From Candidatus Altarchaeum sp. (GTDB lineage: Archaea; Altiarchaeota; Altiarchaeia; Altiarchaeales; Altiarchaeaceae), in the NCBI GenBank assembly GCA_018260755.1, contig JAGTWP010000016.1:1-16372 (forward strand): a stretch of 16,372 nucleotides of DNA, read 5' to 3'. The notes under the pieces were generated by a model that worked only from the letters and a program-made list of their open reading frames with translations, was not told the DNA's origin and did no database searches. Made by a program: the position numbers and the translations under genes. Of the stretch, positions 14,817-16,372 are shown piece after piece (positions within the stretch are counted from its first letter, which is position 1; every line of letters starts with the position of its first letter).

Positions 14817-16298
14817 TTAAGTGTATTTACCAATAACTATTTTGTCAATTAAAGCAAATACATCAAATAAATTTATTGTATTGTCGTTATTCAAATTATA
14901 ATAATCCATTTCGTGTGTCAGAAATTTTCCATTATTTAAATATTCAAGCATTTCAACGGCATCAAAAATATCATCTGCTTGATCTCCACCTCCAATATAA
15001 GAATACATGCATCCAACTACATTATTGTCATTCCAGCCAATTGTAATACCACAAGTATTGTTATCTCCTGAACTTGAAAGCCAATTTGTTGAATTAAAAT
15101 TTAATACATTGTTCCAAACAAAATTGTTATTTATGATTGAACCTGATAATTTTGAGAAAATTCCGATTTTATTATTTGAAATTTGATTATTTGCTATTGT
15201 ATTATTGAAATTTCCGTTTGAACACGAACTTAAATTCCAGGAAGTGCAATCACTTACGGCAATTCCGTTGTCCGTGTTATTTAAAATTCGATTATTTAAA
15301 ATTTGATTATAACTTGAACTTCCGAATACATAAATTCCATTGCTATTTAAATTTGCTGTGTTATTGGTGATGTTATTATTATTTGAAGAATAACTTAAAA
15401 TAATTCCGTCAAGTCCGTTGTGATTTGCCACATTATTTGTTATGTTATTATTTACGGATTGTCCAAGCCATATTCCATCGTATCCATTATAATTTGCAGT
15501 GTTATTGATTAAAGTGTTGTTTGATGCAAGATATAAAAAAATTCCTGCGTCTGAATTTTGCTCAACAAGATTATTTGCAATGGTATTATTTATAGTTCCA
15601 CTTATATAAATTCCATAATAAAAGTTTTTAATCGTGCAGTTTCTTATGGTGTTATTATCTCTTGAAGGATACAAGGAATCTTCTTTACATTTTTTGGCAA
15701 AATTTTCCATATCCGATATACTTGAAAATTCACCGACATGCAATTCACCATTTGAAGGACACCCGAATTGCGGAATTCCTCCACCAGTATTTATTTCTTT
15801 AGATGCACATTCTTTTACAATCTTTACTTTGTTCGGCTCTTTTTCTGCTTCAACCGAGAAAAATTTATATCCTTCATCAGTTAAATTTTGAACCCATGGC
15901 TTCATCTTTTGACAGTGCGGACACCAGTCGGTATGATAAAATATAACAGTATCCGTAGTTATGTGGTATTTATTTAAACACTCAATTGTTTTGATATTAC
16001 TTTTCAAATAAATTCCATAGTCAGTTCCAAAATTATCTCCGTCCAATGTATTCCCCTGGCAGTCAAAAATTTTGTTTGTGAAATTTAATGGACTATTAAT
16101 GCAACTTCCTGCCTGATTTGTTATGCTTTGATTTAATTTGACAGTGCTGCTGCAATTGTTATTGTCATTCAAAGCATTCGTGCAATCGTTACAATTACTG
16201 CATTCACAAATTCCGTTTCCTGAATTGCTGTATGCAAAGACATTTGTGCTTAAAACCAAAAGAATTCCAAAAGCAAAAAATAAAGGCACAAGTTTCAT
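14817..16298 (-). CDS. Secreted beta-helix protein with nested thioredoxin-like domain and dockerin-like C-terminus
   Basis: A signal peptide covers residues 1-22 (hydrophobic core, FAY at its end). A Cys-rich stretch follows (Cys31, 33, 36, 39, 49). NosD-type beta-helix turns begin at about 72 (KIFDCQGNTLDG, then YGIYLKS to residue 100). A thioredoxin-like domain then interrupts them at about 105-206: TVIFYHTDWCPHC with Cys126/Cys129, a GGGIPQF segment giving the expected cis-Pro, and a final helix. The helix turns resume with NTIRNCTIKNF (216-226) and run to about 400 as repeated NNTI, NGI and YGI turns, rich in Asn. Residues 441-489 resemble a dockerin: DYYNLNNDNTINLFDVF has the EF-hand-like Asn/Asp loop, but the first half lacks one. 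It is probably an exported surface protein that may reduce, form or shuffle disulfides. The host of its dockerin-like tail is unknown. Confidence 0.8.
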   Translation of the reverse strand: MKLVPLFFAFGILLVLSTNVFAYSNSGNGICECSNCNDCTNALNDNNNCSSTVKLNQSITNQAGSCINSPLNFTNKIFDCQGNTLDGDNFGTDYGIYLKSNIKTIECLNKYHITTDTVIFYHTDWCPHCQKMKPWVQNLTDEGYKFFSVEAEKEPNKVKIVKECASKEINTGGGIPQFGCPSNGELHVGEFSSISDMENFAKKCKEDSLYPSRDNNTIRNCTIKNFYYGIYISGTINNTIANNLVEQNSDAGIFLYLASNNTLINNTANYNGYDGIWLGQSVNNNITNNVANHNGLDGIILSYSSNNNNITNNTANLNSNGIYVFGSSSYNQILNNRILNNTDNGIAVSDCTSWNLSSCSNGNFNNTIANNQISNNKIGIFSKLSGSIINNNFVWNNVLNFNSTNWLSSSGDNNTCGITIGWNDNNVVGCMYSYIGGGDQADDIFDAVEMLEYLNNGKFLTHEMDYYNLNNDNTINLFDVFALIDKIVIGKYT

Positions 16299-16372
16299 TT
16301 TTTATTTTATCTTATCTTATCTTATATCTTATCTTATATCTTATCTTATATCTTATCTTATATCTTATCTTA
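16299..16372. repeat. 12-bp tandem repeat upstream of the beta-helix gene, truncated by the window
   Basis: Four exact copies of CTTATATCTTAT run from 16321 to 16368, then a partial copy continues past the window edge. Just before are CTTAT pentamers from about 16310, so the array alternates 5- and 7-bp words. It begins about 12 bp upstream of the ATG (16298) and occupies the whole visible promoter zone; its minus strand is GATATAAG-type and so contains TATA-like words in every unit. Confidence 0.9.

Follow-up and report, generated by a model that had tools for sequence, protein, structure and literature searches.

The window, a 16,372-nucleotide stretch from a draft genome of Altarchaeum, a genus of groundwater archaea, holds on its reverse strand (14817 to 16298) a gene for a 493-residue protein in which a NosD-type beta-helix repeat breaks off, gives way to thioredoxin-like sequence and then resumes. 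This raises the question of whether a thioredoxin module is nested within one exported beta-helix or whether the two simply follow each other and, if the module is nested, how the arrangement arose and what it might do. The genome (G000) is a 1.32-Mb draft in 78 contigs and is 85% complete.

Organization of the gene and its product

As read from the translation, the protein starts with a signal-like hydrophobic stretch, a probable Sec signal peptide at residues 1 to 22 (MKLVPLFFAFGILLVLSTNVFA; 16233 to 16298). This is followed by an N-terminal beta-helix part with a CECSNCNDC motif (residues 30 to 100; 15999 to 16211), which is common to 17 paralogues and contains strands in the structural model. 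The N-terminal part ends with YGIYLKS at residue 100, and NNTIRNCTIKNF starts again at residues 215 to 226. The intervening insert of approximately 110 residues carries the thioredoxin-fold module, at about residues 102 to 208 (15675 to 15995). The main beta-helix, with approximately eight further turns, occupies residues 214 to 400 (15099 to 15659), and the protein closes with a C-terminal tail resembling an EF-hand pair (residues 440 to 493; 14820 to 14981) that is common to the paralogues. All of these features are on the reverse strand. Cysteines of the N-terminal region lie at C31-C39, C49, C66, and C80, and the protein as a whole contains 17 N-glycosylation sequons. Directly 5′ of the gene, a short tandem repeat of the TATCTTATCT type fills positions 16303 to 16372, after which a run of N (a scaffold gap) extends past the window.

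C-terminal of the insert, matches above threshold were found to the Pfam families Beta_helix (PF13229; 78.8 bits, 4.4e-22) and NosD (PF05048; 71.1 bits, 1.2e-19), and TIGR03804 repeats were detected in six stretches of the protein (106.4 bits). The copper-maturation NosD family (TIGR04247) was rejected by score, at 17.1 bits versus the 300 bits required. The tail is dockerin-like but sub-threshold in Pfam, as no match to type I dockerin (PF00404) was found in the window protein and the tails of its relatives scored 14 to 16 bits versus a cut-off of 22.9 bits. Several exported proteins of the window genome end in dockerin-like EF-hand pairs, likewise sub-threshold in Pfam, and the genome has two cohesin (PF00963) matches (L098 and L099); taken together, these observations suggest a possible surface assembly of the cohesin-dockerin kind.

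The module is predicted to be nested within a single beta-helix

To place the insert relative to the helix, a query from which it had been deleted was aligned with homologous ORFs lacking the module. The query aligned through the closed junction in 17 such ORFs from four Altarchaeum genomes, two of them belonging to the window's own genome. In one example (L085) the empty site reads NYGVYLENKKNNTIRNCTI, versus DYGIYLKS-(insert)-DNNTIRNCTI in the window protein. In the paralogues, residues 30 to 100 and 214 onward therefore correspond to a single uninterrupted unit. The AlphaFold2 model of the full protein has strands at residues 76 to 78, 84 to 86, and 94 to 99 before the module and at residues 217 to 219, 222 to 224, and 228 to 233 after it. 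Residues 51 to 435 of this model align with residues 28 to 337 of NosD (7o0y_A), with 234 residues aligned at 2.5 Å and a Z score of 22.1, and alginate epimerases gave similar alignment rows. As this span aligns with a single NosD helix, helix turns flank the insert on both sides, and both flanks of the module are predicted to form one beta-helix. A tandem order, in which residues 1 to 104 would be an unrelated domain and the beta-helix would begin only after residue 206, draws on the low confidence with which the first turns were modelled (pLDDT below 50 at residues 59 to 91). However, the continuity of the two parts in the paralogues and their joint alignment to the single helix of NosD and of the alginate epimerases make such an order very improbable.

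An orthologue with an identical insert position and flanks was found in the independent assembly of a second Altarchaeum species, G003 (L018:1682-3451, reverse strand; 589 residues), and lysA is the upstream neighbour of the nested gene in both genomes. A search across 29 genomes of the phylum recovered the beta-helix with a nested module from G000 and G003 alone, two of the four Altarchaeum genomes; no nested orthologue was present at the lysA locus of G001. The preliminary description had proposed a strand split by the insert, with the motif order given above, in an exported beta-helix scaffold displaying a nested redox domain. The split and the motif order are borne out by the translation, the empty-site homologues, and the G003 orthologue, and the nested scaffold is supported by these together with the structure prediction.

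The insert has a predicted thioredoxin fold and conserved cysteines

When modelled alone, the insert adopted a thioredoxin fold with a mean pLDDT of 94. It aligned with TrxP 3hxs_B over 91 residues (Z score of 10.4, RMSD of 2.7), with Archaeoglobus fulgidus Trx3 4xhm_B and others tied, and on this predicted structure the module belongs to the thioredoxin-fold superfamily. TDWCPHC occupies residues 123 to 129, and its CPHC active-site motif (residues 126 to 129; 15912 to 15923) lies in the full model at the start of a helix spanning residues 127 to 141. The GGGIPQF segment (residues 172 to 178), described earlier as cis-Pro-like, carries P176 (15771 to 15773), a proline that is invariant at the expected position and whose cis geometry is presumed. 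Both the CxxC motif and the proline of IPQ/VPQ were kept in all 10 Altarchaeum copies of the module that were aligned. Family models scored lower: the Thioredoxin Pfam match (PF00085) inside the insert reached 21.6 bits, below the cut-off of 23.5 bits, TIGR01068 reached 12.5 bits versus a cut-off of 96.8 bits, and sequence profiles of PDI and thioredoxin gave weak matches.

Six cysteines (residues 107, 126, 129, 164, 180, and 204) are invariant across the 10 Altarchaeum copies. The four that lie outside the CxxC motif persist in nearly all distant relatives, even in one without CxxC, and it is therefore likely that they form two structural disulfides. A divergent copy (L050) lacks the equivalent of Cys-164 and has those of residues 180 and 204, a hint that the pairs are 107-164 and 180-204.

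The module occurs in several other hosts

In the window genome, an FKBP-type protein (L002) also ends in the module. FKBP proteins of G003 and G001 hold two copies each and that of G002 at least one, while the oligosaccharyltransferase AglB of G001 and G002 carries the module at its C-terminus. In G027, which represents a related family, the module is found within an FKBP protein whose end is a DsbA-like domain. PMC4975002 mentions the putative peptidylprolyl isomerase A0A098E9R9, which is related to these proteins, and reports a thioredoxin domain for a related FKBP_C protein. Elsewhere in the Altiarchaeota and in one Micrarchaeote, the module makes up the C-terminal half of solo proteins that are apparently anchored in the membrane, and leuS adjoins these two-domain relatives in many Altiarchaeota genomes (L033, L034, L035, L039, L041, and L043). 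The CxxC motif has been lost in distant relatives, namely, in G004 a CWB2 (cell wall binding 2) protein and in G009 a solo protein, so the family includes members with non-catalytic roles. In the former (L049:555-2375, reverse strand), the C-terminal module lacks both CxxC cysteines, with the structural ones kept. From this distribution, the module looks like a lineage-specific movable cassette with several hosts.

The AglB proteins themselves are varied. Altarchaeum AglBs with C-terminal redox tails were identified at L020:1387-5091 (-), L019:2486-4069 (-), L080:1331-5290 (+), L081:439-4404 (-), and L100. The tail in G000 and G003 is a DsbA-like domain with apparently permuted halves (the CPFC half being last), that in G028 may be a third type (SPRCAESC), and several other Altiarchaeota AglBs have no tail. 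G005 encodes, far from its full-length aglB gene (L102), a separate fragment of the AglB C-terminus that is fused to the module (L036:1495-2265, reverse strand).

Probable sequence exchange between module copies

Nucleotides 352 to 536 of the gene (185 nt; 15763 to 15947) are identical to the FKBP-thioredoxin gene L002 of the same genome, with both edges diverged. Given 48 mismatches in 312 sites, the chance of such a run is bounded at 4e-20. Comparison with the G003 orthologue gave the reverse pattern, with a dN of 0.42 in the tract, at the centre of the module, and of 0.03 at residues 179 to 207. Together, the identical tract, its diverged edges, and this reversal indicate that an older insertion has recently undergone gene conversion. 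The two modules of a G003 FKBP protein (L017:2079-3584, forward strand) share a 171-nt identical run, which is read from the sequence as gene conversion within that one gene. A tree of the modules had few supported branches and singled out no donor of the nested copy.

An identical tract of this kind could also be expected if, during assembly, the 185-nt repeat had joined two separate genes, one for a thioredoxin and one for a beta-helix protein. The division of the draft into 78 contigs, the length of the tract, which is at least that of many short reads, and the run of N just 5′ of the gene are all compatible with such a chimera. However, G003, assembled separately, has the nested gene with matching flanks, the same lysA neighbour, and a diverged insert, and the edges of the insert outside the tract match the nested G003 copy and not the FKBP copy. 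The G003 orthologue rules out a chimera as the source of the nesting, leaving this explanation with next to no probability; an assembly effect could have contributed to the 185-nt tract but not to the nested architecture.

A putative role in redox maturation of surface proteins

The explanation that best covers these observations, and that we consider reasonably probable as a whole, is that the protein is an exported, glycosylated scaffold bearing a catalytic redox cassette for surface-protein maturation. The protein would belong to the large NosD-like family of Altarchaeum, be exported by the Sec route, and fold as a right-handed beta-helix rich in sequons, with a self-contained thioredoxin-fold module standing in for one of the solenoid turn loops (YGIYLKS to NNTIRNC). 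The scaffold would keep the redox centre extracytoplasmic, in the space between the two membranes or on the cell surface, where the module would perform thiol-disulfide exchange (reduction or isomerisation) on cysteine-containing surface glycoproteins. The same cassette would also have entered an FKBP prolyl isomerase and the AglB of sister species, both part of the machinery for envelope-protein maturation, and its copies would be kept alike by gene conversion. As the module protrudes from a turn loop with its catalytic residues kept, extracytoplasmic thiol-disulfide exchange is the simplest reading, and the module's presence in a prolyl isomerase and in AglB, which both act in protein maturation, points in the same direction. 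Catalytic exchange on cysteine-rich surface proteins is most likely on present sequence evidence, from which we infer the export route, the catalysis, its clients, and the disulfide pairing alike. No match to VKOR, a candidate electron partner, was found in the 85% complete window genome.

The module could instead be a passive structural or binding domain that a surface adhesin tolerates in one of its loops and that recombination between genes for exported proteins has spread, with its redox activity inconsequential to the host. Beta-helix loops tolerate insertions, module-less paralogues are far more common than the nested form, some relatives have lost CxxC, and the gene conversion that overwrote the insert does not necessarily imply selection. 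Against this, CxxC and the IPQ/VPQ proline are retained without exception in the Altarchaeum copies, the nested copy has been kept between species with few changes at residues 179 to 207, and the other hosts are protein-maturation enzymes, such that we regard a passive insertion as rather unlikely.

The preliminary description had further suggested that the module acts on the cysteine-rich N-terminus of its own protein, in which case it would form or proofread the beta-helix cysteines (C31-C39, C49, C66, and C80) during folding. The cysteine-rich N-terminus adjoins the insert in sequence, and equivalent cysteines are retained in G003. However, an equivalent cysteine-rich unit is carried by many module-less homologues, so its folding needs no module, and the FKBP and AglB hosts are without such an N-terminus. 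A role on other clients is therefore more likely, and the suggestion of self-action was not upheld; we consider it improbable.

A broader extension of the favoured redox-maturation role can be put forward only tentatively, and we hold it to be possible but doubtful. By this extension, the Altarchaeum cassette would couple disulfide exchange to N-glycosylation (AglB), proline isomerisation (FKBP), and surface scaffolds (NosD beta-helix), as an independent counterpart of the eukaryotic ER system of Ost3/6, PDI, and FKBP, homogenised by gene conversion.

Comparison with known systems

The presence of a catalytic-type domain in a beta-helix, with the filled and the empty site both found within one genus, makes the insertion datable and testable. 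Because the module is found in the AglB of sister species, the link between disulfide exchange and N-glycosylation that is known from the eukaryotic oligosaccharyltransferase can be put to a direct test in archaea, in a lineage that has two membranes and carries unusual hooks on its surface. For protein engineering, the insertion site may be of use as a position in a beta-helix where a loop accepts a folded domain of 110 residues.

The hamus (grappling-hook) protein family has been described for Ca. Altiarchaeum (PMC4460559, PMC4975002), and one hamus protein contains NosD and FKBP_C domains (PMC4975002), which correspond to two host types sharing the module here. Hamus-type domains and the hosts of the module therefore overlap, but S_layer_N (PF05123) gave no match in the four Altarchaeum genomes, and there is no evidence that the window protein is a hamus subunit. 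In the literature searched, no report was found of a thioredoxin nested in a beta-helix or of AglB-thioredoxin fusions.

Beta-helix loops interrupted by inserted domains are a known kind of arrangement, as are fusions to thioredoxin. The scaffold is like that of NosD and other right-handed beta-helix proteins (PF05048 and PF13229; 7o0y), to which the window protein adds the nested module. With thioredoxin, TrxP (3hxs), A. fulgidus Trx3 (4xhm), and PDI domains, the module has in common the CxxC motif, the cis-Pro position, and the predicted fold; it differs from these enzymes in its identity of only approximately 15 to 20%, its four extra conserved cysteines, its sub-cut-off Pfam and NCBIfam scores, and its embedding in other proteins. 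The altiarchaeal FKBP-thioredoxin proteins share the module itself, including the 185-nt identical tract in the window genome, but their host is a prolyl isomerase and the module lies between domains and at the C-terminus, whereas in the window protein it occupies a solenoid loop. Ost3 and Ost6 are thioredoxin-fold subunits of the eukaryotic oligosaccharyltransferase, and in the AglB of sister species a redox domain is likewise attached to an oligosaccharyltransferase. There the attachment is a covalent fusion, encoded by a gene separate from that of the window, and the likeness is one of idea.
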